Made by a program: the position numbers and the translations under genes
Shown: positions 1,448-54,123 of the stretch, piece after piece
Position numbering within the stretch: position 1 is the stretch's first letter
How the letters are laid out: the number at the start of each line of letters is the position of its first letter
NCBI GenBank assembly: GCA_964036045.1
Contig: OZ038382.1
Span: 133,972,442-134,036,441, forward strand
DNA from: Eutreptiella sp. 'Long Island Sound 2002'
Taxonomy: Eukaryota > Euglenozoa > Euglenophyceae > Eutreptiales > Eutreptiaceae
Direction: 5' to 3'
Length of the DNA stretch: 64,000 nt
The notes under the pieces: model-generated
The model's input: the letters and a program-made list of their open reading frames with translations, nothing else
What the model was told of the DNA's origin: nothing
The model's database searches: none

Positions 1448-1471
1448 GAGACCCACCGCTGGAGGTATTTT

Positions 1472-1725
1472 CTTCGAACGAAACCTTCGAAGAAAGATTA
1501 TTTCTTCGAAAGAAGAAAAGTTTTGAACTGTTCGAACGCCTTTGGGGTGGCCCTTTTGCTGCAAACATTGCGATAAAATGCTCAACACAGGTATTTTTGA
1601 GGGTTTGGTTCTTTGGATTCAGCCTGCAACCACCTAAATGCCCTGAAAATGTGTTTTCGAAATGTGGTGGACTTTTCTTCGAACGAACCTTCGAATGTTC
1701 GAACGAAGATACTTTTCGAAGAAAA
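1472..1725. repeat. TTCGAA-rich blocks 1 and 2
   Basis: Two clusters (1472-1545 and 1651-1725) hold about nine TTCGAA hexamers, mostly extended to TTCGAACG, CTTCGAAG or ATTCGAAT, so each unit is self-complementary and each cluster could fold on itself. About 105 bp of unrelated sequence separates them. They sit just inside the left end of the element, mirroring the block at 9307-9377. Confidence 0.8.
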
Positions 1726-2195
1726 AGACGCGGCGTTTACAAACGCACATACAGGCAACAACAGAACCACAGAACCACCAGTGTCCCTGTCCAATGTAGC
1801 TTTCTCAGTCCTGGCTCACCATTCACTGCCTGACACTAGTACTGCAACCTCCTCTTTCTTTTCCGTATCCTCTTTGCCTCGCACACCAGCACTGGTCGTC
1901 GACGCTTTTTTTTCGGTTGCCTCAGGGCAATGCAACGTGGAACCACCCTGGCTCAGGCTGACCCACGTTGGCATCGACGTCACCTTTCTGCGACCTTCTT
2001 CGTGGCTTTGGAGTGCTCCGAGGACCGTCAGTGCTCTCGCAGGCTTCGTTAGGAGGTCGTTGAGCAGGCTGCCCGCAGTCACGGTCGTCTCAATCCCACG
2101 ACTTGGTAGCTGAAGCTTCCACCTGACGTCAACGGCGCTGGTTTGCGTTGCTGCAACCTGTGGGCAGTGGAGCGGTAAAAGACTTCCAATACAAT

Positions 2196-2263
2196 CTTCA
2201 TTCGAAGATTCGAATGTTCGAACCAACTTTTTTTTCTTCGAACGAGGAATTTTTTTCGAAGAA
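2196..2263. repeat. TTCGAA-rich block 3
   Basis: Five TTCGAA hexamers lie in about 70 bp with T-rich spacers. The block is immediately downstream of the end of the minus-strand ORF at 2297-3043, that is, between coding segments rather than inside one. Confidence 0.75.
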
Positions 2264-2296
2264 CAACATACAGGACGCATGCATGGTCAAAAGCGC

Positions 2297-3043
2297 TCAG
2301 CTACAAGGTAAATGCGGTACCTGCCATTCAGGAATGTCCCCTCCCATGTAGCCATGCTGCACTCCTGCTGTGACTGCTGCCTGGAGCACCGTCTGCCACT
2401 TCGCCGGTGTTGTGCTTTGCACTTGTTGTACTCCCTCGGCTTGCTGCGCCTCTTCGTCCAACTGGGCTGCCTCACCACCACCCCGCGCCTGAGCGGTGAC
2501 CTTGACGCCTTTCAAGCGGCCCGTTGATGTACATCTGCCCCACCCTGGGGGCTCTGAGGAGGGGAATCTGAGCATCACGGTACGGTCGTCACGCCAGCTC
2601 TCCACTGCGCCGTAGGCGTGCCAAACAAGCGCAAGCAGACGTATAATTGGGGTTGGGGTGCCTTTTTTGTTCGGGACTGCGAAGGGGAAGGCGCGGGCAA
2701 CCAGTGCACAAGGCAAGACCCTCTCCACAGCCACATCTTTGCAATCGGCTGATAAACATTTTCCGAAACAGCGCCCATAGGTTGACAGTGGCGGAAGCCA
2801 AGCGTACTTCGGGTCCCCGGAAATGGGCGTATGCGGATTCGGTACGGATTTCCCTAGAATGAGGTCAAGGTAGGGGCGGGTGACTCCGGATTCTACGATT
2901 ACCTGGCGGCAAGTGTCGAACTTGGCGCTGACATCGAACACTTCGTTCACCACCACGTAATCCGGATCATATTCTTCTGAATCCTGGGATCCAAAATCTA
3001 GCGGGTCATCCAAACGGCGAGAAGGGGATGGTGACGGCTCCAA
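2297..3043 (-). CDS. hypothetical protein inside the TTCGAA element
   Basis: The ORF of 248 residues starts at an ATG at 3043 and encodes an N-terminal acidic, Pro/Ser-rich stretch, a central region of ordinary composition with a C-G-x-C-type Cys pair pattern (GKCLSADCKD around residue 95), and a Gln/Ala-rich C-terminal third. I recognise no domain. It lies on the same strand as the transposase-like pieces at 3364-4707 and follows them, separated by TTCGAA block 4, so it could be a second ORF or a 3' exon of the same transposon gene. The Gln-rich tail resembles a low-complexity or coiled-coil region. It is not a shadow frame of a better gene, since the opposite strand has only short frames. 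Confidence 0.4.
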   Translation of the reverse strand: MEPSPSPSRRLDDPLDFGSQDSEEYDPDYVVVNEVFDVSAKFDTCRQVIVESGVTRPYLDLILGKSVPNPHTPISGDPKYAWLPPLSTYGRCFGKCLSADCKDVAVERVLPCALVARAFPFAVPNKKGTPTPIIRLLALVWHAYGAVESWRDDRTVMLRFPSSEPPGWGRCTSTGRLKGVKVTAQARGGGEAAQLDEEAQQAEGVQQVQSTTPAKWQTVLQAAVTAGVQHGYMGGDIPEWQVPHLPCS

Positions 3044-3173
3044 ATCCGCTGAACGCTGCGGCGCTGGGTGCTGAGCCAGTTGTGTACTACTCTGGAAAGG
3101 TGTTCCTGGCGATGATTGTGACGCTCAGGCAGAAGTTGGGTGCGCCTGAAGCAACTCCTGAGCACAGCGCGAA

Positions 3174-3284
3174 AGATTCGAAAAATATCTTCGAACGAAG
3201 ATTCGAATATTCGAACGAAGAAAGATCTTCGAACGAGAGTTTGTTCGAGGATTCGAAGATTCGAACGAAGACTAAATTCGAAGG
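3174..3284. repeat. TTCGAA-rich block 4
   Basis: This is the densest block: about eight TTCGAA hexamers in 110 bp, with alternating ATTCGAAG, ATTCGAAT and CTTCGAACG units that make long imperfect palindromes. It lies between the ORFs at 2297-3043 and 3364-4089. Confidence 0.8.
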
Positions 3285-3363
3285 ACTACAACGCATGCCT
3301 GCAGGGCTTGGAGAATATTACATACCGCCACCATTCTTGCGACATCGGCCTTGTCTTCCTTTG

Positions 3364-4089
3364 TCAGCACCATTGAGCGGCATCGTCTATTAAAGATTCC
3401 AACAATGCAGTGTTTAGGCAAGAGATTGGGCGCGTTGTACCATGAGCGACAATATGGGAGTGCGTGTACAAGAAGGCATGCTCCATGGTTTGTAGCAGAG
3501 CAGAGAGCTGGTAGTCATCTGTGGTGCTGCCCCCTCTGTTTGTGAACCGCAAGTAGAAATCCTTTAGCTTGGCATTCGTGGTTTCAGCCAAGTCCTGGCA
3601 GTACACCCCAAGCCCGTATGGTGCTATCACCTCTAGGATTCTGGGCACATCGAACACCAAGATTATCAGATAATGAGAACGGATATCGGGCAAACAGTGT
3701 GCGCGAAATTCCCAGGCCGCCTGCCTACAGTCCACTGGGAGGTCAATGTTGATGCGCTGATAGGTGCGATAGAGCCGTTGCATCACATCCCGCAACCTCA
3801 TGACAGCCTGGTTACCCAAGTGCCCGTCAGCCAACCCGAAGACATGAGCAATACCTGTTATACCATCCGATATAAAAAACAAACGCTTCGTTTCTTGTCC
3901 ATCAGGTCTACAAGTTCCACCTAGCTGCCAACCACACAGAGCAATCTTCAGCATGTTATTGATAGCGTGGCATGCTTCCCTGCTGGCGGACAAGCATAGC
4001 CTTTCCAAGTATTCCCCAAGCAAAGCACCAATCCGCATAAGCATATGAAGAACACAAATAATGGCATGGTGTCGTGGTACTTGAAGCAA
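3364..4089 (-). pseudogene. transposase-like protein, C-terminal part (copy 1)
   Basis: The frame encodes 241 residues. At residues 164-187 (3529-3600) it carries C-x-D-x2-E-T-x-N-x3-K-D-x2-L-R-x3-R-G-G. The ORF at 51240-51806 has the same pattern with identical spacing (12 of 24 identical) and the same 54 residues to its C terminus, so the two are homologous. A Glu in this block could be the last acidic residue of a DDE-type site; that is inference. The N-terminal part of the protein lies upstream on the minus strand at 4182-4707 and 8608-8890. The junction near 4090-4180 changes frame and could be an intron or a mutation. I cannot assign a named superfamily. Confidence 0.55.
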
Positions 4090-4181
4090 AGGTTTCGAAG
4101 TGCAGCCACGAGCTCTCTTGCAGATAGGGGTCTTGCCAAGTCAGGACGCATCACCGGTGCGCGTTCTGCGCCGGTGACAGC

Positions 4182-4707
4182 CTACGTACCACCTCTTGAG
4201 AGGGTTCCAAAGGCCCAAGTTGTGAACTGGCGGTATATACCAATGCTCAGTAAGTCCCAAATAACTTCTTCAAAAACAATAAATCTCCGCCGGGCATAAC
4301 ACTTGCCGCACAGCGTGCGCCCTTCACGACGACGGATCGCGTAGTTTTGATCCGCTGCAGGACTTAGTAGCGTGCAAAGCGCAATCAAAATTTTGTTCGA
4401 AAAACACGTTCGGTCGAAGAAAAAGCTTCGTTCGAACAGTCCAAGGTTTGAACGAAGGCAATATTCGAAGAAATAACACACCCTCAGATTCTTTTTCCAG
4501 ACCCGGCGCAAATCCTGCAGATTGGAGTCAGCACAGTATGCCAGCTCTAAAACCCAAATGTGTGCTGCATTGCGGGCTGGATGCTCATGATTTCGGATGC
4601 GAATGGTAAGCTGAGTCCAGCTTACACCCGCTACAGGATAACCATCGCCACCCACAATGAAAACCTACCCATCTTTGCTGGGCTGTAGAGTTTCATAGAG
4701 GCAAGGC
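4182..4707 (-). pseudogene. transposase-like protein, GDG core part (copy 1)
   Basis: Read on the minus strand from 4707, the frame gives a 14-residue stretch ending in an in-frame TAG (4665-4667) and then continues with GDG-Y-P-x4-S-W-x-Q-x-T-I-x3-N-H-x3-A-R-x-A-x2-I-W-x-L-x-L-A. The plus-strand ORF at 50599-50814 matches this without gaps, 19 of 37 identical. The Asp of GDG is a candidate catalytic residue (inference). TTCGAA block 5 (4396-4478) interrupts the protein-like sequence and is translated as Phe/Arg/Ser-rich filler, so it may be intronic: a GTGTGT start and a CTGCAG end flank it. The 5' part of the gene is at 8608-8890, separated by the 3.9-kb insertion, and the frames join exactly across it. 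Confidence 0.55.
4396..4478. repeat. TTCGAA-rich block 5
   Basis: Three TTCGAA hexamers and several degenerate relatives occur in about 80 bp, inside the minus-strand transposase-like frame, where the encoded residues are unlike the neighbouring protein. This is consistent with an intron or a small insertion. Confidence 0.65.
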
Positions 4708-4721
4708 TGTGTGAAAACGTA
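4708..4721. repeat. 14-bp target-site duplication, left copy
   Basis: TGTGTGAAAACGTA occurs here and again at 8594-8607, immediately outside the inserted segment 4722-8593. A 14-bp exact duplication is typical of target-primed retroposition. Confidence 0.8.
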
Positions 4722-4747
4722 AGTAAGTAAGTAAGTAAGTAAGTAAG
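4722..4747. repeat. (AGTA)n microsatellite, probable retroposon tail
   Basis: Six and a half tandem copies of AGTA abut the left target duplication. Read on the minus strand they form a (TTAC)n 3' tail. Confidence 0.85.
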
Positions 4748-5540
4748 GGCGGCCGCGTCCGCAGCCTCATCTGACATCTCCATGTTTGTTTTACATGGTG
4801 GCCGCCTCTGGCGGGAAGGAGTGCTCTCCCCATCAGTTCCCCTGGCGACCCCTGTCTCACCTCAGGGCCGAGAACTTCAACCAGGTTCCCTTGGGGCATG
4901 ACCGGTGGTAGGCTCCCTTCAGTCGGTGCCCTCACGGTTTCAGCTCCTTCCGGTCACCCTTCGAAGGATCCCCCGGCCTTCCCCCCCTAGCACAGCCTGT
5001 TGGGCACCTGCAGGCGGGTTTCCTGTGGATAGCCCTCGCCAACAGCGGAGCATTTCTCTCTGTCAACCACATTCCAGCACCATCCATCACTCACGGGCTG
5101 GAGTACCCACTCGGCTCCCGGATGCACTTGGTTGTCGTCCATCCACGGATGGAGGCCAGGGGGCGACCCTTCCCACGTTCCGCCTGGTCCCGCTCACGCG
5201 TGAACCTACGTGTACTCAGGCCATTGACCCAGGGATCTCAAGGTCAACGCTCACCCCTGCGGACACCTCACGGCCGTCCTGGAGTTCAGGGCATTTTCCC
5301 GACTTCCCGTGGCCAGGCTCCCCATGGTTGGCCCATGGTTCACCACTCCATGGCGACCGGTTTCCCAGTCCCATGGGGCTGTTGCTTGGCGCTTTCGGCC
5401 TCCCTGCCCTTCCCATGTCCCACTCCCCTTTGCCTCATCCCGGCACCGGCCCGTTCCCAGCGTCCCATGGACTCCCTACCCCGTCGGGCCGTTGTGTGGC
5501 CCTAGCCACACGCCCTTCCCCGCCCCGTCCCCTTGTCCCT
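4748..5540. other. GC-rich non-coding part of retroposed insert
   Basis: Overlapping frames on both strands (longest 253 residues on the plus strand) are Pro/Ser-rich and mutually exclusive, as expected from GC-rich non-coding DNA. I see no domain or regulatory motif. Confidence 0.4.
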
Positions 5541-5860
5541 TCATCCCGTGTTTATACCCGACCGGGTCGCCTGCTACCCTGTGGCGCTGGCCCACTTGGG
5601 CCTCTTCCTTCCGGGGACCGCTTCGTGCGCTTAGCACGGGTCGCTCCCTGCCCGCCCCCGGCCTAATCCCCTGGGCTGTCTTGCGGCCCCATCCCATCCC
5701 TCATCCCGTGTTTATACCCCACCGGGCCGCCAGCAACCCTGTGGCGCGGGCCCACTGGATCCTCATCCATCCAGGGACGGTTTCGTGCGCCTAGCACGGG
5801 TCGCTCCCTTCCCGCCCCCTTCCCCAGTGCCGCGGCCCCGGCCCATTCCCCTCAGGGCTG
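5541..5860. repeat. 160-bp tandem duplication
   Basis: Two units begin at 5541 and 5701 with TCATCCCGTGTTTATACCC and remain similar for their whole length (shared blocks such as CTAGCACGGGTCGCTCCCT near 5632 and 5792). The period is 160 bp. From 5860 to about 6220 nothing recognisable is present apart from a GCGTACC-rich short repeat near 5880. Confidence 0.75.
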
Positions 5861-6223
5861 GTACCGAACGGCGTTCGTGAACGCGTACCGTCCGCGAACG
5901 CGTACCATCCGGTATTGATACCGCACAGCACGTGTGCCGTATTGAGATGGTGCCGCAGACAGGCACCGCATTGCAGCACGCGCGCACGCTAGACAGAAAA
6001 ATTGCCAGATGAATTGAAATATTGCGAAAAACACGCTGCTGGATCGCAAGTTTACTACCGATGTTGGTAATTAGCATTATTATGCATTACGGCACCACTT
6101 TTAGTCTTGAATCGTAATGTCGCAGTTTTGGGAACATAAGAACGAATTCTGCTAATACTAGTATTGTTGTGACCGCGTTGCAAATGCGCATTCAGCGGTG
6201 CATGAGTTTCCAGCAGCGGTGCC

Positions 6224-6742
6224 GTGTACGCTGAAAAACACTGCTCGCAAGGTTTTAAATCCCTCCTTTTAGATGGGCCATGTGAGGACGTGCTCGTGCA
6301 GGACGCGTTCAAAGCCGTGCACAACGAGTATCGGAGAAGCACAAGCTGTGCAGGACGCGTGCAAAGGCTTGGACAACAAACGAAGAAGTACGTGCCGTCC
6401 TCCACAATAAAGTGGGCCCTCCTCCGCGATCAAAGGAGGAACGCATCTACGCGAATGGCGCGCGCTCAGACGACGACACGTGCAGACGCGTCAACGCAAC
6501 CCCGGTCCTCACCAATGGACGAAGACGCGTCGTTGAACGATTATTGGGCAGAGGTGTTCAACCGTCAATGGGACATGGAGTGCTATGCAGAATTTCAGTG
6601 GTTGTGTGAGCGAACGCAGATGCCCTGTGTTTCTGCGAAACAATGGTTGCAGCTTGGACGATATAGGCAGCATGTGTTGATGCGATTGCTTCGAAGCATG
6701 GACAAGGCTTCAAGTGTTGCTTGCGCAGAACATGGCTCCTAG
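6224..6742 (+). CDS. hypothetical protein upstream of BED finger
   Basis: The ORF encodes 172 residues, with ordinary composition in its C-terminal half (from about 6520: acidic start, many Trp, Cys and Gln). It overlaps the next plus-strand ORF (6714) by 29 bases in another frame. It has no recognised domain. A frameshift or splice joining it to the zinc-finger ORF is plausible because the two together would resemble the N-terminal part of a hAT-type transposase gene; that link is inference. Confidence 0.35.
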   Translation: MYAEKHCSQGFKSLLLDGPCEDVLVQDAFKAVHNEYRRSTSCAGRVQRLGQQTKKYVPSSTIKWALLRDQRRNASTRMARAQTTTRADASTQPRSSPMDEDASLNDYWAEVFNRQWDMECYAEFQWLCERTQMPCVSAKQWLQLGRYRQHVLMRLLRSMDKASSVACAEHGS

Positions 6743-7120
6743 GAGCAGTGGGTTTCTGGAGGAGCACTTCACCCTTTCCGTTGCCACAACGACTGCAAGG
6801 ACAGGAAAGGACTGGAAGTGTAAATATTGTGACTACCTGGGGAAGGCTTGGGATGGCCCGGCGCGTGGCAAAGCACATCTTGCAGGGCAAGGTGGACGCG
6901 GTGTGGCAGTATGCCCGAAAGTCCCAGAAGAGATCAAAAAGGCAGTGCTGCAAGAACTTGAGGAGAACTCCAAAAAGAAGCTGCATAGACTCCAGTCCCA
7001 AGAGAAGCTGAAAGAACTGAATGAGAAGAAGCGTGCTGCAGAGGATTCGCCTGATGGAGCTTCAGCCACCAAGCAGCCCAAAAATTTCCCCTGGGTTGTC
7101 CCGGCCCTGCTCCTCCTGAG
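6714..7120 (+). pseudogene. BED-type zinc finger, hAT-like transposase fragment
   Basis: About 130 residues encode W-K-C-x2-C-D-Y-L-G-K-A-W-D-G, then R-x-K-x-H-L-A-G-Q, then a Cys followed by K-V-P-E-E-I (roughly 6815-6935). This C-x2-C...H...C layout with an HLAG block and a following VPxEI is the BED zinc finger found at the N terminus of hAT-family transposases and related chromatin proteins. It is followed by a Lys/Glu-rich coiled-coil-like region and an SV40-type basic stretch. The frame then runs into the 65-bp tandem array, so the rest of the transposase (DDE core and hAT C-terminal dimerisation region) is missing. DNA binding is the likely role of the finger. Confidence 0.6.
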
Positions 7121-7630
7121 CGGTGTTCTGGGCCACCGGTGTGCGCGCTCTGTGTGTGGTGTTGCGTGTTCGGTGCCATGGGCCCCCTGGCTCCTGTTCT
7201 CCGGTGTGCTCGCTCCGTGTGTGGTGTTGCGTGTACGGCGTCTTGGGCCTCCTGGCTCCAAATCAGCGCTGTGCACGCCCTGTGTGTGGTGTTGCGTGCA
7301 CGGTTTCCTGGGCCTCCTGGCTCCTGCTCACCGGCGTGCACGCTCTGTGTGTGGTGTTGCGGGTGCGCCGTCCTGGGCCGCTTGGTCCCTGTTCACCGGT
7401 GTGCACGCTCGCTGTGTGTTGTTGTGTGCGCGTTGACCTGGGCCGCTTCGCTCCTGTGCACCGCTGTGCCTGCCTCGGTGCGCTGTGTCGTGTGTACGGT
7501 GTCCCGGGCCCCTTGGCTCCTGTTCACCGGTGTGCACGCTTTGTGTGCGTTGTTGTATGTGCGGCTTCCTGGACCTCCTGGCTCCTGTTCACTGGTGCGC
7601 GTGCTTGCTGTGTGCTCCTCGCATGCTTCC
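7107..7630. repeat. ~65-bp tandem array, about 8 units
   Basis: Units begin near 7107, 7192, 7255, 7321, 7386, 7451, 7515 and 7581 with variants of CTCCTGTTCACCGGTGTGCAC and contain TGTGTGTGGTGTTGCGTG. Spacing is 63-66 bp except the first. The array is translated as Cys/Val-rich peptide on the plus strand and is open in several frames, which is why long ORFs appear there. Confidence 0.85.
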
Positions 7631-7639
7631 TATCCCCCT

Positions 7640-8090
7640 CCCTCATCCTCGCTTGATCTAGTGCATGTTCTCCGTGTCTGCCCTCCTGCTTTTTCCTGCC
7701 GCCGTCCCCTCGTCCTCGTGGCGACCCTGGCGATTGCATTCGAGTCTCCGTCTGTGTTAGTCCGCTCTTTCGTCCTGTCCTTCTCCTCTTTCCTCTGGCT
7801 CTTGTCCTCCTTGTCCTCCCTCCCCACCTCTCCTTGCTCTTGCCTCTCCTTTCCGCCATCGTGACCCCTCCGCCCTGGTCCGTTCCGGTCCGGGCAACAT
7901 GTGCCCATCCGCCTCCCCTTCTTCTCCTTCTCCCCTCGCTTCCCACCTCTTGCTCTTTCTCCTCCCGCTTCGCGTCTTCTCTCCTTCTTCTCCTCCCCCT
8001 TCTGTTCCTTGCTCTTGTTCTTGTTCTCTTCTCCGTGTCGCTCCGCCGCCGTCTCCTTCTCCTATTTTGCTGCCCCTGACCTTCCATTCC
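7640..8090. other. C/T-rich spacer
   Basis: The plus strand is strongly pyrimidine-rich (many CTCCTT and CCTCTT runs). Minus-strand frames are therefore Arg/Glu/Gly-rich low complexity. I see no gene. Confidence 0.5.
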
Positions 8091-8094
8091 TGGG

Positions 8095-8593
8095 CCGCTT
8101 CCTCCCCGGTCGTTCCAGTCCGGGTGCACTGCGTCCCCGGATGTTCCAGTCCGCGGCACCGGGCGCACCCCCGGACTTTTTGCCGTATTCCCTCTGTTGC
8201 CCCGGACGCTCCAGTCCATGGCACCGGGTTCACCCCCGGATGATCCAGTCCGGGGGCTCGGGCCGAGCTTCATTCCGCCCCGGATGCTCCAACCCGGGGC
8301 GTCTTTTTGTCTTATTCTTTCCGTTGCCTCGGTCGTTCCTTCCCGTGGCACCGGGTTCACCCCTGGATGATCCAGTCCGGGGGCTAGTACCGTGCATCGT
8401 TCCGCCTCGGATGCTCCATTCCGGGGCGCCTTTTAATCATATTCTCTCCTTTGCCTTGGACGCTCCAGTCCGTAGTACCGGGTTCTCCCCCGGACGATCC
8501 AGTCCGGGGGCCCGAGCCGTGCTCCACTCCGCCCCGGATGCTCCACTCCTGGGCGTATTTTTTTTTCGTATTCTCTCCGTTGCCTCGGACGGT
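8095..8593. repeat. ~128-bp tandem array with CCAGTCCGGGG motif
   Basis: Units centred on GGATGATCCAGTCCGGGGG start near 8232, 8360 and 8489, and a partial unit begins near 8095. Each unit also contains CCGCCCCGGATGCTCC and TATTCTCTCCGTTGCC. The array ends exactly at the right 14-bp target duplication, so it would form the 5' end of the minus-strand insert. Confidence 0.8.
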
Positions 8594-8607
8594 TGTGTGA
8601 AAACGTA
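8594..8607. repeat. 14-bp target-site duplication, right copy
   Basis: TGTGTGAAAACGTA, an exact copy of 4708-4721, directly abuts the right end of the 4722-8593 insert. Confidence 0.8.
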
Positions 8608-8890
8608 GTTGATCCAGTGATCAAACGGCCAGGGGACATTTCGGATGCCGATTCTCTTGTCGATGTTGCCAACAAGGTGCAGGGGCTCCTTCATCCTTTT
8701 CCAAGCCAGGTTGACTCTCCGGCGGCCTGGCATTGGTTTCCCAAACCTTAGGCCAGTCTGTTTGTACCATACGTCCGCACGCTTGGAAATAAAGCGCGAT
8801 AGAACCCGAAGGCGGCGTCTAGGGATTCCCAAATCGAGAAGCAAAGTGACTGCTTCTTCAGGCGAGCATTGAGCATCGCTGTGCCATCGT
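8608..8890 (-). pseudogene. transposase-like protein, N-terminal part (copy 1)
   Basis: The minus-strand frame contains S-P-E-E-A-V-T-L-L-L-D-L-G-I near 8870-8830, matching Q-E-A-V-S-L-I-L-D-L-N-I in the plus-strand ORF at 49839-50165. It then runs through a basic stretch to P-W-P-F-D-H-W-I-N-Y just before the target duplication. The frame joins the one at 4707 exactly if the insert is removed. An alternative frame at 9023-8748 overlaps the 5' end and may hold an upstream exon or represent decay. The start codon is not identifiable. Confidence 0.5.
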
Positions 8891-9128
8891 AGAAGTTGAT
8901 TCGATCTCTGCTTGTCAGCGCCTGGGTTGACTCATGTGTAGATTGAGTGTAAAAGCTGGCGTCCCAGGCCGGAGAAGGTGAAAAATTGCACAAGCGCGTC
9001 CTCAACGTCCTGGCTATAAGCATTCGTCGTGCCTACCACGTTTTTGAGCGTAATTCCAAGTTGCACCATTGGTCAAACAGTGACACCCTTAAATATACAA
9101 CAAGTCAGTTGAAAAAACCAAAAAGCCC

Positions 9129-9193
9129 GTCTTTCTGGCACAAATCTGCGTCTTTCTGGCACAAATCTGTGTTCTTCTGGCACAAATCCGCGT
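9129..9193. repeat. 21-bp tandem repeat, 3 units
   Basis: CTTTCTGGCACAAATCTGCG recurs at about 9131, 9152 and 9172 with few changes. It lies between the right TTCGAA block and the first coding part of the element. Confidence 0.85.
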
Positions 9194-9306
9194 CAATCGC
9201 CTGTCAATCTGGTGCGCGCGCTGCTGTTGCTGCGCTTTTGCGGCAATTCTCCCAAGCAGCTTGGATTCGATTGGATTCAATTGAATTGCGATTAAAGCAA
9301 ATACAA

Positions 9307-9377
9307 TCTTCGAGTTCGGATCTTCGTTCGAAGATTCAAATCTTCGTTCGAAGACTGAAGTTCCTTCGAAGAAAATA
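9307..9377. repeat. TTCGAA-rich block 6 (right terminus)
   Basis: Three TTCGAA hexamers within CGTTCGAAG and CCTTCGAAG contexts end in GAAGAAAATACC, the reverse complement of the left-end GGTATTTTCTTC. Confidence 0.75.
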
Positions 9378-9395
9378 CCCCCCCCAATGGGTCTC

Positions 9396-11068: not shown

Positions 11069-11968
11069 GGCGGTTAGGTGGTTGTACCAAAAGGATGTCC
11101 AGCCCTCAGGGGCCATCAGCTGGGTGGGAGGGGAAGGTCGTGTCTGGTAGAGAAGTTTGGTGACGGGGCACGGTATTCCTTTCTGTCGGCCAAGAGCGTT
11201 GTTGAACCGGCGGCAGGTGCGCCAGAGGTAGTCTGCGAACTCCTCCGGTGCCGTCCCCGCCCACGCCTCTGGTGCCGGGGAATCTATGTGGCGGGTTGGG
11301 AGGTGTTGGTCCGGGAGGTGGAGGCTGCGGTGGTGGAGCTTGAGGGCGAGGAGGATGTTGCGGGCTGCCGCGCTCAGGCCGCCCCCGGCCTGGCATAGGG
11401 GCGGGCTGTGGAGGGGCAGGCGTGTGTCGCCCGTGGCGATGGCAATGGCCCATGTGTGGTCCGCCGGTTCCGCAGCGTAATCCCCTCCCAGGAAGTCCCG
11501 GAGGGTGTCAGTGAGGGGCCCGAAGAAGCTGAGGTGGCTGGCTGGGGGGGGGGGGCGGCCCAGGTCGCGGTCTGCGCGTGGTTGTGGGGGTTAAGCTCCC
11601 CGCGGTGGGAGCAGCAGGCGAGGCGGTGTGCGGCCCCTAGGCAGAACCAGTCACTCAGGTTACAGGGCAGGGCTGTCTGTGGCAGCCGTAGGCGTAAGCA
11701 GAGGGGGCATGCGGTGGCCGGCGGTTGGTGGTACCTGTGGACGGGTGGTGGCGTGGGGGCATGGGGGCTTGTAGCGCGCGCATGCTGGTGGGCGTGTGTG
11801 TGGTGCCTGTGGTGCTCATGCGTGTTGCGGTGGTGTTGTGTGCAGTGGGTGGTGCGCGACCTGGGGGGGGGGGGGGGGTCGTTGGCCGGATGTTGGGTTG
11901 TTGCAGGGGGCATTATGGTTGGTAGAACAGCAGTTTGGGGAGGTGGGCCCTGGTCCGTCGAGGGTAAG
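11069..11968 (-). repeat. ~890-bp repeat unit A, zinc-finger coding
   Basis: The unit matches 20849-21743 in the same orientation at roughly 90% by eye, from GGCGGTTAGGTGGTTGTACC to the GGTAAGGTGGCTGC block. On the minus strand it encodes C-P-L-C-x10-C-x5 followed by Cys/His residues, then a region with W-A-G-T and F-W-Y-N-H-L. In this copy two cysteines of the cluster are changed (Arg and Ser) and frames are broken. Its minus-strand 5' side is cut by the LINE 3' end at 11977; in unit B the homologous sequence runs on. Confidence 0.7.
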
Positions 11969-11976
11969 GTGGCTGC

Positions 11977-25663: not shown

Positions 25664-25673
25664 CTCCCCCTCT
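25664..25673 (-). promoter_or_regulatory. polypurine tract
   Basis: On the minus strand AGAGGGGGAG directly precedes the 3' LTR, the position where plus-strand DNA synthesis is primed. Confidence 0.85.
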
Positions 25674-28466: not shown

Positions 28467-28470
28467 CTCC

Positions 28471-32924: not shown

Positions 32925-32939
32925 TCCTCGGACTTCAAC

Positions 32940-43833: not shown

Positions 43834-43943
<110 letters not shown>

Positions 43944-45448: not shown

Positions 45449-47154
45449 CTTAGGCGGCTCACGTTGCATGGTAGAAAACGACAGAAAGTGCCCAAAATAC
45501 AGGGTCTCAAAAAACTTCAAAAGAACCATTCTTTGGCTTGCAAAAAATCAAGCCGTTTTTGAAACACCAAAGGAACTCTTATGTAAGGAATTTTGGCCTT
45601 TTCTTGGTCCTCATGGGTCGAAAAAAAAATTTTTTGGGGCAATGGACTGTTCCTTGCGCGAGGCCTCGCGCAAAGAGCAGTCCATTGCCCCTCCAAAGTC
45701 AGGTAATGATGGTAGAATTGAGGAATCAAGCAGGCGCCTACACTGGAGTGACATTACAGGCACCCTTGACTTGATCACATTGTACAATATGTTTACGCGG
45801 GCGGACATTCAGCGTTTCAAACAAGCCTTGCAAATCTAATTGATGACTCAAGAAATCATTTCCAATGTTGTTGCATTCCTAACAAAAGGAGCACATACGT
45901 TGGAGGTGTTGCACAGGGTGCATCCTTCAGCATTGCTCATGATGCACACCTACCACAAGTTATGGGGAGTGTCAAGCAAAGAAAAGAGTATCACTGGTAA
46001 CACATGAAGCATGTCCAGTCAACAGATGACGCTGAGCTGGACAGGAACCCCCATTTAAGCCTGGGCTGAAGAACAACTTGATCCCTCCGTTGTTGACTAT
46101 AGATGAAAGTAAAATGTGCAAAGAAAATATGAATTTGTCATGTGTGGCACTTTTTTGAGCGTTGGTTTGGGCCAAAAAAACTGATTTTTTGGAGAGTAAA
46201 ATGCAATGTAGTGCAAACAACACCAATTATCAAGATGATGTTCGATACCCAGAGAAAGAAGATGCCCTCGGGGAAGCAGTCTGCCAAGCGCAGGGGCTGA
46301 CCAAGCCCAAAAAGAGTTTTTCTCCCTCCGGGGGGGGCAAGCTTCTGGTAAGTTTCAATGACTCAACGACAATTTAGGTACTCGTTGCTTCAGTGAAGGT
46401 TGTGCACAAGCGCTATCAGATGAGAACCCATTACAGTGGTACAAAGAATATATTTTCTGGGCCTGTTTTTGCGCGAGGCCTCGCGCAATGAGGACTGCAA
46501 TGCAGTCCCGGAACTTGAACACCACAACCTATACCTCTTCGTTCAGGCAGTGCAAATCAAAATCAAACTGTGGGGTGGGTAGTAAGACCACTGGACCCCG
46601 AAGCCGTCTTTCCAAAGGAAAATGAATCGGGTGAGGTTTTTGGTTTAGTAAGTTATGCGCGAGGCCTCGCGCATGGGGCAGCCCTTGAACCACATGTTGC
46701 ATATGCTTTGCATTGATATTTAATCCACCATGCTTCTGTTTAAATGATCCTTGTTCTTGATTGCGCGAGGCCTCGCACATAGAATTCGATCAATAAATCA
46801 TTTTTCCAGGTATGCAATGAACATGCAGAACAGAAAATGATGTTGCAATCATGTTTTCTGCAGACCATGTTCATCCAAAAAACAAGGGGAACGCAAAATG
46901 TATTTATTGGCCAATTTCAGCTAAAAGCACATCATTTTCCACTGAAATCATAAGATTTATTTATTTTTTTATTGTTTTTTTTTGTTTTCGGCTGTCTGAA
47001 AAAAGGCAAAAATGGTACAAATGGTAAGAAAGATACTTTCTTTGGACTAATATTCTGTTTTAAAAAAACAGAGCCTGTGAAAAACTATTTTTTTGCATGG
47101 TCCAAATTGAGTGCATTTGGTGTGATTTTGACCATGCAACTTGAGCCGCCTAAG
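45449..47154. mobile_element. TIR element with GAGGCCTC palindromes (insertion 2)
   Basis: Both ends read CTTAGGCGGCTCA followed by [CA]GTTGCATGGT (24-bp terminal inverted repeats with one mismatch), and CAGGA is duplicated at 45444-45448 and 47155-47159. Removing the element and one CAGGA restores the Gypsy-2 frame (E-D-S-Q-E-T-M-P). The 1,706-bp interior has only short ORFs (124 residues at 45468-45839, without a domain), so it is non-autonomous. Four palindromes GCGCGAGGCCTCGCGC lie inside. The superfamily is unknown. Confidence 0.85.
45636..46778. repeat. four copies of a 16-bp palindrome
   Basis: GCGCGAGGCCTCGCGC occurs at 45656-45671, 46471-46486 and 46657-46672, and with one change at 46763-46778. 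The first is the centre of a ~56-bp near-perfect palindrome (45636-45691) with GGGGCAATGGACTG arms. Spacing is irregular and all copies lie inside the TIR element. Confidence 0.9.
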
Positions 47155-47401: not shown

Positions 47402-48111
47402 GGACCCGTCTTTTTTTCAAATCGTAAAGCTGTAGCTTCAGAGGGGGGGGGGGGGGGGTGGGGCCGGCTTCACAGCTGGAGAAAATTGTGCAATGCCAAA
47501 TTTGGACCTGATTTGGCGGATTTGGGGCCTGTGGTGGCGGCGCGCTCCCTGCCTTCGGCGGCGCGCTCACAGCAGGCCAGCCCATCGACGGCCTTAACAA
47601 CGATGCTAATAGTGTTAGTTCTATCCAATTGCCAATTAGGACACGATTCGGAAACAAGGGTGACTCCGGTGGATGATAGAAGGCCCGGAGTTAAGGATCT
47701 GGCTAAACCCTGGTGTGGTGCCTCAGCCCACACCGGCTGTCCCCCTTGGGTGCATCAATGCACTTGGGAGGGGACTGGTACACGTTAATGGGCGCATTTG
47801 CTTCGGCTTTTGCCACGCCTACGTGTATGGGGGATCACAAGTCCCTTGAAGCCGGAGGAGCCCGAGTGGAAGATGAGTGGACTAGGACGCAACTGAGGTA
47901 GGCGCATCGTTGTTAAGGTACGAATGGGTGGATGCTCTGCAACATGACTCATGCGAGTGCCACAATTGTACGATTCTGCCTCAAATGCCTTGCTGAATTC
48001 TGAGCTGCAATAGCATTCACCATGTGAGTGCCACACAATGCACAATTGTCTCAAGTTGCAGGATTTGTCTTGATTTGTTTTGAAGTGCACTGGTGTTGAT
48101 TCCGTATATGA

Positions 48112-48520
48112 ATGCACAGCCTTGCTTTGATTTTGGTTGTAGACTTCGTAGAAGCCTTCCACTCTGCCTTGTGTTTTTGTTGGATTCCGATTTGCGTTGC
48201 ATTGCTATGGCATCTAAAATCGGCGACGTCAGCCGTGCGACCCGGGCCTCCCTACTGCGCGCGAACGGTGTTTATTGATTGTAGGAAGGTGCGCCTTTGC
48301 TTCACTTTTGTTTGTAGAGGTCGTAGGAGCCTCGCACAAGGAGTGGTTTTTTTCCTGTGTACTAGTGAGCAGATGATACAATTAGATTTGCAGTGCATGT
48401 CAAAACGGCGACGTCAACAAAGTGCGCTAGTGGCTTTTAATGTGGTCCAACGTTGTTCATTTGTTGTACGAAGGCACGCCCCTGCTTTAGTTTTGGTTGT
48501 AGAGGTGCCGAGAGCCTTGC
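48112..48520. repeat. ~180-bp tandem array, three diverged units
   Basis: Landmarks TTTTGGTTGTAGA[CG] and a following GTAG[AG]AGCC or GAGAGCC block recur at about 48131, 48306 and 48491 (periods 176 and 184), with intervening AAA[TA]CGGCGACGTCA in the first two units. The array lies upstream of the chromodomain frame. Confidence 0.6.
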
Positions 48521-48681
48521 GCTATGAGTTGTTTCACATTTCCACACAAATCCATGGTCCGACAGCCTTTTTGCCTTTTGCCACATATGGACAAGTTCAT
48601 CGTGAGAACCAAGGTAACCAAGCCACCCCGGCCTTTACCTTTGCTCGCTTCGGGGGCCCTTCAACTTCGCAAGAATTTTGA

Positions 48682-49206
48682 CTCTTTGGTTCCTATCCCC
48701 AAGGTGCATCCCAAGTTCTTGCCCCAAAAAACGAGCTCACCAAAATATTCGGAGGCTCCCAAAAGCCCCCGCCCAAAAGGGCCAAAAGGGCCAAAGCCTA
48801 CCGGGGAGTAGATAAGGTTGTCCCTCACAAGCGCCGCGGGGAAGAAGAGAGTGAAGGGGAGGACGAGGCAGAGGTAGAGGCCATTGTTGGGAAAGCGATG
48901 CGGGATGGGGTGGTGCATTATGTAGTTCGGTGGAAAGGGTATGGGGAGGGGGATGACACAGAGGAGCCCGCAGAGTCATTGCGCCATTGTCAGGAGTTGG
49001 TAGATGCATATGAGAGAGAAAATGGTGATGAGACCATGTATGAGCCTGAAAGGATCATCAAATCAGTAAAAAGGCGCGGGAAGGTGCATTATCAAGTGCG
49101 CTGGAAGGGGTTTGGGGCAGAGAGCGACACCGTCGAACCGGAGGGTAACCTGCCGCCGTGGCTTCTTGAGCAGTTCAGGTGTGATTCAGGTGTCGTTGAC
49201 ATTTAG
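48682..49206 (+). CDS. protein with two tandem chromodomains
   Basis: The frame is open from 48682 (after a TGA at 48679) to the stop at 49206, about 174 residues. A basic linker (P-P-P-K-R-A-K-R-A-K-A) and an acidic stretch (E-E-E-S-E-G-E-D-E-A-E-V-E) precede chromodomain 1 (V-V-H-Y-V-V-R-W-K-G-Y-G, T-E-E-P-A-E-S-L) and chromodomain 2 (I-I-K-S-V-K-R-R, V-H-Y-Q-V-R-W-K-G-F-G, T-V-E-P-E-G-N-L). Chromodomains bind methylated histone tails. The upstream frame 48112-48681 is in the same phase and separated only by the TGA, so the gene may be longer with a mutated codon or an intron. The true start is uncertain; ATG at 48898 is the first Met in the open frame. Confidence 0.7.
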   Translation, partial: LFGSYPQGASQVLAPKNELTKIFGGSQKPPPKRAKRAKAYRGVDKVVPHKRRGEEESEGEDEAEVEAIVGKAMRDGVVHYVVRWKGYGEGDDTEEPAESLRHCQELVDAYERENGDETMYEPERIIKSVKRRGKVHYQVRWKGFGAESDTVEPEGNLPPWLLEQFRCDSGVVDI

Positions 49207-49494
49207 ATAACTCCATTGGATGTCTACTGTTGTTTCCAGTCGTTGAGGTGACTCCGACGCAAATGATCAATGAGGTCACACTTTGGTGTCCATTAATGCT
49301 TCAATTGCTTGTGTTTTGTTTGTGGGTTCCAAAAGGGAGGGCGTTTTCATGTGCAACACTGGTTAGTAAAGGAATACGCAAAGCTGGTAGGCAACCACTT
49401 GCAGATTTGGTCGGGCAGCTTCACCGGGAGGGGGGGGGGGGGGGTCTTGGCCTTCTGAAGCTACAGCTTCAGGTTTTGAAAAAAAGACGGGTCC

Positions 49495-49620: not shown

Positions 49621-49735
49621 TTTGGTGGTTCAACTGGCGGTTGAACCAGGTTTACCACGTTTTTGAGTAAAAGGTGGCGGTTGAGCCAGTTGAACCACCG
49701 GTTGAACCGGTTGGACCACAGGCTGGCACTGGCAG
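49621..49735. repeat. TTCAACCGG-type repeats, left cluster
   Basis: GGTTCAACTGGCGGTTGAACC, GGTTGAGCCAGTTGAACC and ACCGGTTGAACCGGTTGGACC follow one another. They are imperfect palindromes built on the 9-mer CGGTTGAAC. Confidence 0.8.
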
Positions 49736-49838
49736 CGGCGCGCGCGCTGCAGCGCGCGGCAGCGATGGTCAATTAAAATTGATGTTGCTTAGTAGAATTA
49801 CAGCAGTGGGGTATTTGTTATTAGTGTTGTGAACCACA

Positions 49839-50165
49839 ATGTCTAGTACCAATGATGTTGCAAATCTTCTGGTGGCAAAATATGGTGTATTGACACAACC
49901 GTGTGCCAAGGACGCACTAGTGGTCCTATTCACGAGCAAACAACATGGCATGGCTTTGTGGGACCGCATTATTGCCCCGGTAAGCTCATCACGACACATG
50001 GCCAAACGACGTCACGATGGCCAAGCAAAGGTATTCACCGGGCAAGAAGCTGTGAGTCTTATTCTTGACCTCAACATTGTAAAAAAAACGAAGGTGGCGC
50101 CACTCTTGCCATCGTTGAAACATAGTTCAACCGCCTTCACTTCAGCGGTTGAACGCGTTGTGTAG
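49839..50165 (+). pseudogene. transposase-like protein, N-terminal part (copy 2)
   Basis: The 108-residue frame starts at an ATG at 49839 and includes G-Q-E-A-V-S-L-I-L-D-L-N-I, matching E-E-A-V-T-L-L-L-D-L-G-I of copy 1, and ends in a stop after a further ~30 residues that include a TTCAACCG-derived stretch. Sequence to 50470 is broken protein-like material (for example 50196-50405). Because the TTCAACCG motif sits at its end, an intron or insertion may follow. Confidence 0.45.
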
Positions 50166-50473
50166 AACCTCGCGGACTATTCGAGCTATAGTCTCTTGTA
50201 TCGTTCCATATTGCCCCAGTCTTCAAGGTTGGTGTCATATGATGGTCATGGATGGTGCTTACATGCAATGCACAGCTCGAAACCGCACTTTTCAAACTTG
50301 AATGTCGAACGTGTGAATGTTGAACATCGCGCGGCCGTACCGGTTGCACCTATCTCAACCGCTTTGACTATGCACATAGGTACCGCAGGCTCATTGAGTG
50401 GTTAAACGCCAAAAGAGGTCTTGGACGTCGCCTCATACATCCAACTTGGCATCATTGCTTTCCATCTAGCGAG

Positions 50474-51116
50474 GTGATGGAGAAGGCATGGCAACAATTG
50501 GCGTCTAAGCGAAAATTAACGCCAACTAAGGCACACGGCACCATTGCCGTACGCTGGGATTTGGATAACTTTTTTTCCTACATTTCTACCAAGTTGGTGT
50601 GCTCAACGAAGTTATTTTTCCCGAACCTATATATGTTCTTGTTTTTCGGGGTGACGGCTTTCCATGTGGTTCACGCTCATGGGTGCAAACCACAATCACG
50701 TTTGCGAACCACATGGCAAAAGCGCGCACAGCTGGGTACATATGGACTCTCGATCTTGCCCTCCGCAAAGAGAGTGATTGTGATGTACTAGGTGCTTCCC
50801 CTCACGCCCGTTGAGCAAGATTGAGAAAATCATCGATACGGGCTATATTGTATTGCGCACGTACTACGTTCGTGCGCGTGTTATAATAGGAGGTGATTCC
50901 CACTGGCTACGCCATTTATTGGGTTTGAGCACCGATTTTGGTGTGGGTATTGTGTACTCGTTTGCCACATGGTGCTGTGAGCTCCAAAAATGGTGTGACA
51001 CGGACGTTCCACGTACTAAGAAGGCCGAAGAAAAAAAAGCAACGTTTGTACACACGTGGTGCAAGTGCCTCGGCTGCCCACTGTTGCACCAAGGAGCCAC
51101 TTTTGCACCTCGATGA
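50474..51116 (+). pseudogene. transposase-like protein, GDG core part (copy 2)
   Basis: Frames 50474-50620, 50599-50814 and 50811-51116 follow one another with single-base changes. They give V-R-W-D-L-D-N-F-F-S-Y-I, then F-R-G-D-G-F-P-C-G-S-R-S-W-V-Q-T-T-I, then N-H-x3-A-R-x-A-x2-I-W-x-L-x-L-A, then after the frame change V-I-I-G-G-D-S-H-W-L-R-H-L-L-G-L and a Cys-rich stretch (W-C-C-E-L-Q-K-W-C, W-C-K-C-L-G-C-P). The GDG block is 19/37 identical to copy 1. G-D-G and G-G-D-S are candidate catalytic aspartates (inference by analogy with DDE transposases). Confidence 0.55.
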
Positions 51117-51239
51117 CGGTGATCATTTGTTGCGATGTGCGTGTTGCATTTACTTATTGAGGTGGGGAAGTATATTACGAAGTTTGTTCGTGTGCATGCA
51201 ACACGCGTAACCCCGCACCAAAGGAACAAGGCATAAGAG

Positions 51240-51806
51240 GTGCTCAATAAGGCTAAAACCAACATAGCATGGAAAGGCAGGAGCCAATCAGATGGTGAGG
51301 AGGGGTGGCATTTGCTTACAAATTGGAGTGTGATCGCAAAAGTAGTGAAACTTCCATCACAAGCGCGCGCCGTCGTTGAGCAAATGTCTGTCATACTAAC
51401 CCATATGTACCGCTGCGAATTCCACCCTGAAGTGTTGAAATACGCTGCTGTTGCCAAGCGTTTTCAACTTATCATATGCCCTACCGTAAGGTCCCCATAT
51501 TTACTTTCCCTTCGCACAGATGCCAAAAGGGTGTTCACTAGTATATGCCCATGGGGTGCCGCAGTTTTTTGCGGTGATATTGTCGAGACCATCAATTACA
51601 TCCATAAGGATAGCTTCCTCCGGAAGAGTGCCCGTGGGGGTGGTGGCAAGGATGTACATGGGAATCACGAACGCCTCCTCAACCACGCTCATGAGCGAGG
51701 CTTCCTTTATGAAGAACTCCCGCGTTGGGACGGACGGCCAAACAAGGATGGTGCGATCAACGTCCAACAATTAGCGGATGGCGTACAATCAGAGTCAGAG
51801 GTGTGA
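51240..51806 (+). pseudogene. transposase-like protein, C-terminal part (copy 2)
   Basis: The 188-residue frame carries S-P-Y-L-L-S-L followed by C-x-D-x2-E-T-x-N-x3-K-D-x2-L-R-x3-R-G-G at residues 111-134 (51570-51641), then 54 residues to the stop, exactly as in copy 1 (3364-4089). The C-terminal tail includes H-A-H-E-R-G-F-L-Y-E-E-L-P. It continues the protein of 50474-51116 after a break near 51117-51240. The start is arbitrary within the longer gene. Confidence 0.55.
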
Positions 51807-52023
51807 ACAAATGCTACAATGGTTTGTCTTCTGCGTGTCGTGTGACTCCTTTGCCTTGAATTTTTGCCGTGCAATGGTTAGGTGGTCCGTAACAACTTTC
51901 ATCGTGGAGTTCAAAAGTAGGTTCAAGCGCTGAAACACATGGAAAGCACGAGGTTGCCCCAGTTGCCTAGTGTGTTGCAACCGGTTGAACCACTTCTACG
52001 CTCCGCCTTGTGTCCGTTTAGTA

Positions 52024-52689
52024 ATGGCGGGTGCACCCCCGCGCGGATTCGAGGAACTTTTTCCTCAATTGCAACAATTTCAACGTTTCCTAGATCCACA
52101 AGAGGCTGAACAAGCCTCACAATCTCAACCTCGCAGTGTGGAAGGAGATAGCGGATCAACCTCGCCAAGTCAAAGCCAGCCCTCTCCGGCGCCACAACTG
52201 CCGCCTCCCCGCGCGTCCAACGTCCCGCAAGATACACCGTTCAAGCAAGCATGGGCGTTGAATCTCCCGGTCCGTGAGGAGGTTCTAAAGTACCAACATG
52301 CCCACCCGGATGCTAGCCTTGCACCACCCACGCAATAATGGGCTTGGCTCAAGGATATCACGCCAGCCTACCTCCACAAGTGCGCACTCCGAATGTGGAT
52401 GAACAAGAATTGTGAGCAAAACATTGCAGGTGAGACGGCGGGGCCATGGACAACACGGTGCCTCTCAGAGACCAACTGGTCTCTTTGGAAGGTCTCTTGC
52501 ATTGGGAAGAAAGGGGAGATGGGGGAAATGACGTTGAAGGAGGAAGCACGTTATGCTTTGTACAAGATTTGGGATTTGAATCTTGGCGTTGCGGAGGAAT
52601 CAACATGGAGCTTGGGATCCACGGGTGGACACAGTGGTGGCCACGTCTCTGGCAATGGATGCAAGTTCTGTTTCAAACCACTTGATTAA
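52024..52689 (+). CDS. hypothetical protein(s) of the TTCAACCGG element
   Basis: An ATG at 52024 opens a 104-codon frame rich in Gln/Ser/Pro (F-P-Q-L-Q-Q-F-Q-R-F, then a Pro-rich linker and L-N-L-P-V-R-E-E-V-L-K-Y), stopping at 52338. A second frame (52393-52689) has C-A-L-R-M-W-M-N-K-N-C-E-Q and many Trp/Gly. The sequence between the two is open in the first frame apart from one TAA, so they may be parts of one gene. No domain is recognised. Confidence 0.35.
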
Positions 52690-52952
52690 ATACCACTCAA
52701 TTGATGGGATGAGCGGCGCTCCGCTGAGTACCGCTCACCGCCAACTTTGCCATTGACCTGTGGCGGGACAATCCCTGGTGGCGGGAAACCCCCAAGCAAG
52801 CAAGGAAAGAATAAGGAGGCAGGGGCGGCACAAGTGTTCGCTGCAGGTTCCGCAAGTGAGGGACACACCATGGCGCCAATAGTGCCAAAGGAGTTGGTGC
52901 AAGTATGTGTGGCGCCGCTCGTACCCTTCGTGTGCTTTGACCGACAATTGTG

Positions 52953-53020
52953 ATGGTTCAACCGGCTCAACCGTCCCGTTGTACGAGTGTCTACTGCGGT
53001 TCGGCCGGTTTCCCCGCATC
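52953..53020. repeat. TTCAACCGG-type repeat, internal copy
   Basis: GGTTCAACCGGCTCAACCG, a short spacer, then CTACTGCGGTTCGGCCGGTTTCCCCGCATC. The same arrangement recurs at 54028-54105, making a direct repeat of about 70 bp. Confidence 0.75.
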
Positions 53021-53237
53021 GCTCTCTTTTCTGTGCATCACCAAAATTTGCAATCGTGCTACTACATGTTTGTAGTTAACAGCCCGGGTGTGCCGAGTGA
53101 TACGCTGGTGGTTGACAAAAGCGGGCCAGGCATCATGGTGCAAGGCCGTTGGCCACCGCAACCACTTGACCAGTGTTTTGGCACAACCCCTGACAACGGA
53201 GACCTTGTCGATACATTGTGTGACCGTTGGAAGCGCA

Positions 53238-53862
53238 TGCTATAACAAGGCCTCAAGGAGATTGACAATGGGTGTGTGGCGGGGAGCCCAATGCCGTTCC
53301 GAAAACAAACCCAAGGAGTTGGTGGTGGCGGGAATGTGGCACAACAATGAGTCCATGCGCGCGCGCCAATGGTCGTGGAGCAAACACCCCAATCCGGGAG
53401 TACCCGTCAAATGTTGGACTCGTCCGACGCCGAGAGTCCCTTGGTGCGCCAAAGCGAGTCGTTCGAGGAGTTCTCGGAGAGCTTGAACGAGTTCAAGGAG
53501 GAAAACGGCACCACCGGCGAGGCGTGCGCACAAGGTTCTTGGGAAGAAGCTCCTCGCGCAGCACCACCAGCCATCACCCAAGCTTTGGGAAAGCAATCCC
53601 AACGGGCAAAGCAATTCATGAAGGCCGTTCAAGTCAAGCGCAAGAGGCAAAGCCCAAGGCAAACCAAGCTCCAAAACCAAAGTTCAAGCCAAGTGGTGTC
53701 CAGAGCAAGAAGCGGAAGAAGGTCCCGAGCCCGGATGATGATGGCAACGAGTCAAGCCCAATCCTCACCGACGGGAGTGAGGATAGTGAGGATTCACCAG
53801 TCCCACTCAAACCACCACCAACGGAGAAGTCAAAGGTGAAACAAAAGGGCAAGAAGCCGTGA
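53238..53862 (+). pseudogene. Lys/Ser/Pro-rich hypothetical protein, frameshifted
   Basis: The protein-like path runs in the 53369 frame (S-F-E-E-F-S-E-S-L-N-E-F-K-E-E, A-K-Q-F-M-K-A-V-Q-V-K) and shifts near 53630 into the 53272 frame (K-P-K-A-N-Q-A-P-K-P-K-F-K-P, K-K-R-K-K-V-P-S-P, acidic D-D-D-G-N-E). Alternating basic and acidic low complexity suggests a nuclear, DNA- or chromatin-associated protein. It lies between the two right-hand TTCAACCGG repeats. Confidence 0.35.
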
Positions 53863-54017
53863 AGGAAAACCAAGAAAGGAGATGGTGCACCGAAGGAGAC
53901 AGAATCCGTGAGGCCCGCGGACAAATTTGCAGATCAACCGCTGGTGGAGGAGGCGCCCGCACCTCAAGACGAAGGACCCACACCTCAAGACAAAGACGTG
54001 TCGAAAAAGGTGTGCTG

Positions 54018-54105
54018 CTCAACCGGCTCTTGTAATAGTTCAACCGGTTCAACCGCACCGTTCTCCCGGTTTCTACTGCGGTTGAACCGGTTTCCCCGCA
54101 TCCCT
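54018..54105. repeat. TTCAACCGG-type repeats, right cluster
   Basis: CTCAACCGGCTC, AGTTCAACCGGTTCAACCG and CTACTGCGGTTGAACCGGTTTCCCCGCATC occur in order. The cluster is the last element-specific sequence before Gypsy-2 resumes near 54124. Confidence 0.8.
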
Positions 54106-54123
54106 TTGTGTAACCAATAGGAG

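Follow-up and report, generated by a model that had tools for sequence, protein, structure and literature searches.

Two decayed, related transposon-like copies with family-specific palindromes on a Eutreptiella contig

Are the scattered protein remnants at two distant places on one contig of Eutreptiella sp. 'Long Island Sound 2002' the relics of one kind of transposon, and if so, of which kind? We analysed 64,000 nt of contig OZ038382.1 (assembly GCA_964036045.1, positions 133,972,442 to 134,036,441 of the forward strand; hereafter the window), in which an initial annotation made from the letters alone had recognised two diverged copies of an unnamed transposase-like family. Copy A occupies 1443-9400 on the minus strand, and copy B lies on the plus strand, starting at about 49622 and ending at 53023 or 54105. 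A and B are probably dead copies of two related families of one cut-and-paste (class II) DDE transposon lineage. The observed basis of this reading is the homology of the two proteins, the order of their motifs, the terminal inverted repeats (TIRs) of A, the palindromes specific to each family, and decay.

Kinship and decay of copies A and B

The protein remnants of A and B show collinear homology, comprising seven blocks with 27% identity. The order common to both is DALV..F; EAVxLxLDLxI; AW...W..D; GDG..SW.Q.TI..NH..AR.A.IW.L.LA; GGD..L..L.G; CVLH.L...G; and RS.YL..L..D..R....P.G..V.C.D..ET.N...KD..LR...RGG. In a frame-by-frame BLAST of the A region against the B region, the ET-x-N region gave E=1.6e-12 (39% of 77) and the GDG region E=1.8e-10 (44% of 48). 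The top frame-to-frame local score was 163, compared with a maximum of 60 among 200 other stretches of the window and of 53 among 100 codon-shuffled versions of B. Singly, each of the seven blocks, which were picked after the alignment had been seen, was matched in score by 0-4 of 2000 shuffles, and the weakest was GGD (4 of 2000). Differences over 108 aligned codons numbered 51 at position 1, 47 at position 2 and 78 at position 3, and this third-position excess is the pattern of once-coding DNA, pointing to former selection on the protein. The homology had originally been described from three blocks. All three are present, and recounting gave the same figures: 19 of 37 positions identical without gaps in the GDG block, 12 of 24 in the C-x-D-x2-E-T-x-N...R-G-G block, and 54 residues from RGG to the C terminus in A and B alike. 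The N-terminal block (EEAVTLLLDL, 8859-8830, minus strand; QEAVSLILDL, 50043-50072, plus strand) is weak alone (E=0.05), and DALV..F, AW..W..D, GGD and CVLH extend the original set. Taken together, the sequences provide good evidence for the kinship of A and B. No third member of the family was found within the 64-kb window, where matches to the full profile other than A and B, which match by construction, had E values of 4.9 or worse.

The coding parts and ends of A, in coding order, and the coding parts of B are as follows.

9320-9400, minus strand: A, left-end TIR (coding sense), CCCATGAGACCCATT...GGTATTTTCTTCGAA plus palindromes
8608-9067, minus strand: A, N-terminal transposase piece with the DALVQFF and EEAVTLLLDL blocks and one in-frame TGA
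4708-8607, minus strand: A, retroposon-like insert of about 3.9 kb with exact 14-nt duplications at 4708-4721 and 8594-8607 and (TTAC)n at 4719-4747
4500-4721, minus strand: A, GDG block with the candidate first catalytic D at 4646-4644; one in-frame stop ahead of the block
4200-4330, minus strand: A, GGD block (motif at 4294-4265) with the candidate second catalytic D at 4285-4283, in another frame than GDG; one in-frame stop
3364-4140, minus strand: A, C-terminal piece, 258 open codons and a stop; CVLH with its C at 4056-4054; CQDLAETTNAKLKD with the candidate E at 3585-3583
2300-3124, minus strand: A, second open frame of 275 codons, a possible second gene
1443-1515, plus strand: A, right-end TIR (coding sense), CCCACGAGACCCACC...GGTATTTTCTTCGAACGAA plus palindromes; 40 nt, 83% complementary to 9361-9400
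49839-50120, plus strand: B, N-terminal transposase piece with the KDALVVLF and QEAVSLILDL blocks
50430-50812, plus strand: B, middle piece with a frame change and the GDG block; candidate first catalytic D at 50653-50655
50813-51806, plus strand: B, GGDS (candidate second D at 50895-50897), CVLH (C at 51138-51140) and GDIVETINYIHKD (candidate E at 51585-51587); three in-frame stops before the end

The TIRs of A (CCCAYGAGACCCA...GGTATTTTCTTCGAA) match over 40 nt at 83%, or over about 80 nt with gaps (score 58), and they enclose the transposase gene, which is good evidence that A has the anatomy of a transposon. Both copies are dead. A is broken by the TGA in its N-terminal piece, the stop before GDG, frame changes around GGD with one more stop there, and the insert; B carries frame changes before and after GDG and three in-frame stops from GGD to its end. 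In the middle of A, at first described as a single piece, the GDG part holds an in-frame stop and GGD is in a different frame. Most of the gap between the first two pieces of A is the 3.9-kb insert, which contains GC-rich tandem repeats (7134-7597 and 8176-8591) and is closed on the minus strand by the (TTAC)n. A flanking duplication together with a simple-repeat tail is what target-primed reverse transcription produces when it inserts a retroposon. An intron was rejected on the grounds of this tail and of the 14-nt duplication, which is exact. No Rfam match was obtained in 4700-8700, even at a laxer threshold.

Candidate catalytic motifs and the class of transposase

The acidic residues of GDG, GGD and ETxN, in the order D, D, E, are kept in both sequences. 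The first and second D are 242 nt apart in B (about 80 codons) and 361 nt apart in A, and most of the excess in A can come from a palindromic stretch at 4391-4480. Counted from the second D, a CxxH comes after 81 codons in B and after about 76 in A (where a frame change intervenes), and E comes after 230 codons in B and after about 233 in A; E follows CxxH by 149 codons in B and by 157 in A. This CVLH (4056-4045, minus strand; 51138-51149, plus strand) is the only C/DxxH common to both copies between the second D and E; B has an additional CEFH in this interval that is not kept in A. According to two published accounts, C/DxxH at this position marks hAT, P, MuDR, Kolobok and Dada (PMC3706591, PMC9587614). 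The shared CVLH therefore argues for a DDE transposase of the C/DxxH group, and the sequences offer moderate evidence for this DDE/CxxH assignment.

The elements could accordingly have worked as follows. Each would have encoded a transposase at least about 530 residues long. Its DDE core is predicted to be RNase H-like, with the first D in GDG and the second in GGD, followed by CxxH and then by E in C-x-D-x2-E-T-x-N-x3-K-D. The N-terminal part might bind the family's own palindromic motif in the end arrays, the core would cut the element ends, and the excised element would be pasted elsewhere. The RNase H-like fold, catalysis, palindrome binding and target duplication are all features that we infer for this lineage.

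Several observations weigh against this reading. The conserved acidic residues stand among many other conserved residues in an alignment of two sequences only, and AlphaFold2 run on the two sequences returned a low-confidence all-helix model with a mean pLDDT (predicted local distance difference test score) of 41. No convincing target-site duplication (TSD) was found for B, nor for A, where the only match is of 5 nt and in the wrong register. Inverted matching of the arrays found no clean TIR in B. Protein-guided scans yielded no confirmed relatives in viral contigs (queried with the complete alignment of both copies, with its C-terminal and GDG blocks separately, and with two individual pieces) or in prokaryote genomes (queried with two alignments). 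In addition, palindromes occur between genes and between conserved blocks, where simple end-binding does not need them. The earlier proposal of a DDE transposase is partly supported, by the D-D-CxxH-E order in both copies and by the TIRs of A.

The transposase may well belong to a named eukaryotic superfamily, or to a widespread unnamed eukaryotic family, and look like an orphan through decay and because eukaryotic protein databases lay outside the comparison, which would be compatible with a dead DDE transposon lineage. The CxxH in A and B points to the hAT/P/MuDR/Kolobok/Dada group, and B has CLGC ahead of CVLH. Against this, six pieces searched in Pfam matched no transposase model, nor did the two joined readings in searches of Pfam, NCBIfam and PHROGs; the Pfam results were followed up to E=1 and 5. 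These are weak tests because decayed sequences may fail to match. PDB sequences gave nothing usable with the A and B proteins. 'Unnamed' here means without a usable match in Pfam, NCBIfam, PHROGs and PDB sequences, with Repbase and eukaryotic proteins outside the comparison. The initial annotation could not place the family in a superfamily, and these databases do not allow it either, but CxxH points to the C/DxxH group. Cnidarian and sponge genomes contain many uncharacterised proteins with GDG, GGDxKFL, CxxC and E-x-x-N in the same order; if that animal family is as we take it to be, the A/B lineage would presumably be a branch of a widespread family. Two sets of candidates were rejected. 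A Pfam match of one A piece to the isocitrate dehydrogenase C terminus (E=0.15) was taken as chance, and ten viral-contig loci found with the DNA pattern for F-L-G-G-D-x-K-F-L had translated frames of 11-107 residues unlike the A/B family.

A and B resemble the C/DxxH group in the order D, D, CxxH, E and in the long stretch from the second D to E, and differ from it in matching no Pfam profile, in placing CxxH 76-81 codons past the second D and in showing no target duplication. None of the hAT or MuDR Pfam models was matched, a weak test on decayed sequences. Kolobok has a TTAA target duplication and 5'-RR termini (PMC9587614), whereas A starts with CCC and has no flanking TTAA. For Dada, PMC3706591 gives D1-D2 and D2-E distances of 68 and 176 in Dada-U6_DR, states that Dada-U6 and Dada-U1 lack TIRs, and places all Dada copies with clear ends in small-RNA genes. 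The C/DxxH, these spacings (of the same order as the values of about 80 and 230 here) and the subterminal inverted motifs are likenesses to Dada; unlike Dada, A is bounded by TIRs, and searches for Rfam families and tRNAs matched nothing anywhere in the window. Inspection by eye of the incomplete N-terminal pieces recovered from A and B did not reveal the N-terminal CCCC zinc finger of Dada.

Outside the C/DxxH group, the CMCT clade (EnSpm/CACTA, Mirage, Chapaev, Transib, Plavaka) carries C(2)C and H(3-4)H between the second D and E (PMC12730594). In B this interval holds a single C(2)C, CLGC, and a single H(3)H, HWLRH, but H(3)H precedes C(2)C and directly follows the second D, and A has neither motif. 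CMCT ends are mostly 5'-CA..TG-3', whereas A ends in CCC..GGG and the ends of B are unsure. CACTA elements have subterminal repeats, a likeness to A and B. The KDZ group (Kyakuja, Dileera, Zisupton) forms large elements with accessory genes in algae (PMC12477816), and Kyakuja and Zisupton have TSDs of 7-8 bp (PMC12730594). A and B may resemble KDZ in the former respect, but show no Pfam match and no 7-8 bp TSD, again a weak test on decayed copies.

Palindromes of the two families

The palindrome of A is CTTCGAACGAAG, with the core TTCGAA, and that of B is CGGTTGAACCGG. They lie at the following places.

4391-4480, minus strand: A, stretch with TTCGAA palindromes that separates GDG from GGD, probably an intron or insertion
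3177-3280, minus strand: A, TTCGAA palindrome array directly downstream of the transposase stop
2184-2266, minus strand: A, array of TTCGAA palindromes following the second open frame
1665-1724, minus strand: A, subterminal TTCGAA palindrome array
49624-49719, plus strand: B, left-end array of the CGGTTGAACCGG type, with an inverted match to 52954-52984
50125-50154, plus strand: B, hairpin GTTCAACCGC(10 nt)GCGGTTGAAC between two conserved blocks, a probable intron or insertion
51970-51999, plus strand: B, palindrome directly downstream of the transposase end
52930-53023, plus strand: B, palindrome array, the likelier right end, 78% identical to 54010-54105
54010-54105, plus strand: B, second copy of the right-end array, an alternative right end or solo end

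With at most one mismatch, CTTCGAACGAAG occurs 12 times in A, never in B and once in the remaining 51.6 kb, and CGGTTGAACCGG occurs six times in B and nowhere else in the window. The bare core TTCGAA is less exclusive, with 31 occurrences in A, none in B and 15 in the rest. Arrays had been reported at the ends of both elements. They are indeed there, but they also stand behind the transposase gene and between its conserved blocks, so that non-coding parts across both A and B carry palindromes. The left array of B scored 37 in inverted matching against 52954-52984, 31 against the array near 54105 and 30 against the palindrome near 51990, whereas none of 272 null scores exceeded 30; 53023 is thus a likelier right end than 54105.

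In the simplest reading, the terminal palindromes would be the sites at which the transposase recognises the ends. Possible, though doubtful, is that the palindromes are not binding sites but short repeats building up in these elements independently of the transposase. The palindromes between conserved blocks (4391-4480 and 50125-50154), the other palindrome families in the window and the distribution of bare TTCGAA would fit such repeats, whereas the close pairing of each long motif with a single element and the presence of palindromes no more than about 80 nt from both ends of A speak for recognition sites. Hairpins, counted against eight simulations with nested ones counted more than once, numbered 40 in A (simulated 7-18) and 20 in B (4-11), and also 103 in 54106-64000 (6-25) and 91 in 9401-45400 (45-76), so A and B are not alone in carrying an excess. 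Perfect palindromes (arm of at least 7, loop of at most 3) amounted to 55 in the window compared with a mean of 21 in 20 simulations. Further families exist in the window, and such arrays are therefore common here. Two more arrays have their own motifs (58319-58432, AGTATACGGCCGTATACT; 62796-63043, TTGGCGCGCGCCAA). The region 57932-61301, with ACATTTCTTGGCCAAGAAATGT-type palindromes at 60103, 61155, 61183 and 61214 and an inverted pair at 60159-60201/61245-61287 (95%), is a probable small non-autonomous element. Among the papers listed by our literature search we noticed none on comparable palindrome arrays, which is no proof of absence.

A bolder view, which we regard as unlikely, would set the lineage apart as its own superfamily of eukaryotic DDE transposons of the C/DxxH type, each family evolving its own long palindrome in all non-coding parts, namely at the ends, in introns and between genes, with protein and palindrome changing together; the window would then hold two autonomous relics and several non-autonomous kin (arrays at 45.6-46.8, 58.3, 60.1-61.3 and 62.8-63.0 kb). 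A separate lineage would be a new branch of C/DxxH transposases, would supply two protein/palindrome pairs for testing joint change, and would help to name the unclassified share of repeats in algal and protist genomes. Inside a known superfamily, A and B would be an ordinary pair of transposon relics.

It is very unlikely that A and B are larger multi-gene or virus-like integrated elements whose genes are separated by palindromes and whose protein is possibly not a transposase. Such elements are suggested by the second open frame of A (275 codons), with palindrome arrays on both sides, and by more open frames and arrays after 51806 in B. However, among 19 frames of the window searched against Pfam, only retroelement reverse transcriptase (RT)/RNase H and chromodomain matches exceeded the cut-off, with no viral capsid or packaging family; three tested frames behind the B transposase are unlike the second frame of A, and an RT frame follows at 54854-55678. 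The second frame of A matches nothing in Pfam and resembles nothing in the rest of the window, and it stays open, flanked by palindrome arrays, although the transposase gene of A is broken. Highly improbable, finally, is an origin as relics of an ordinary host gene family, with palindromes and terminal repeats contributed by other nested repeats: the window is packed with nested repeats and holds no third copy, but two motif families lie at the outer ends, behind the gene and between its blocks and hardly elsewhere, and the TIRs of A enclose the gene.

Other elements in the window

Downstream of B, the RT frame at 54854-55678 (RVT_1, 2e-23) and an endonuclease-like frame at 56465-58111 (Exo_endo_phos, 0.0012, below the cut-off) are pieces of nested retroelements. 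Upstream of B, a 1.7-kb element at 45449-47154 has TIRs of 29 nt (CTTAGGCGGCTCAxGTTGCATGGT, 90%), and each of its ends is immediately bordered by the 5-nt sequence CAGGA as an exact direct repeat. It contains four TTGCGCGAGGCCTCGCGCAA-type palindromes (perfect at 45654, 46469 and 46655, imperfect at 46761) and has no match to the A/B profile. A second TIR pair at 47402-49494 (44 nt, 91%, GGACCCGTCTTTTTTTCAAA) encloses an open frame with two chromodomains (48682-49203; Pfam Chromo, 3.2e-24) and shows no target duplication of at least 5 nt.

A long terminal repeat retrotransposon occupies 25195-35427, with terminal repeats of about 480 nt at 95% identity. Its minus strand encodes RT, RNase H and a chromodomain above the Pfam cut-off, with integrase matches below it; the frame 30801-31973 within it had no Pfam match. 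Direct repeats at 11069-11986 and 20845-21755 (91%) lie 9.8 kb apart, and an inverted 687-nt copy (1-687/11982-12668, 87%) starts where the first direct repeat ends. The GC content per 2 kb is 0.53-0.74 in 1-24000 and 0.46-0.59 in 24001-64000.

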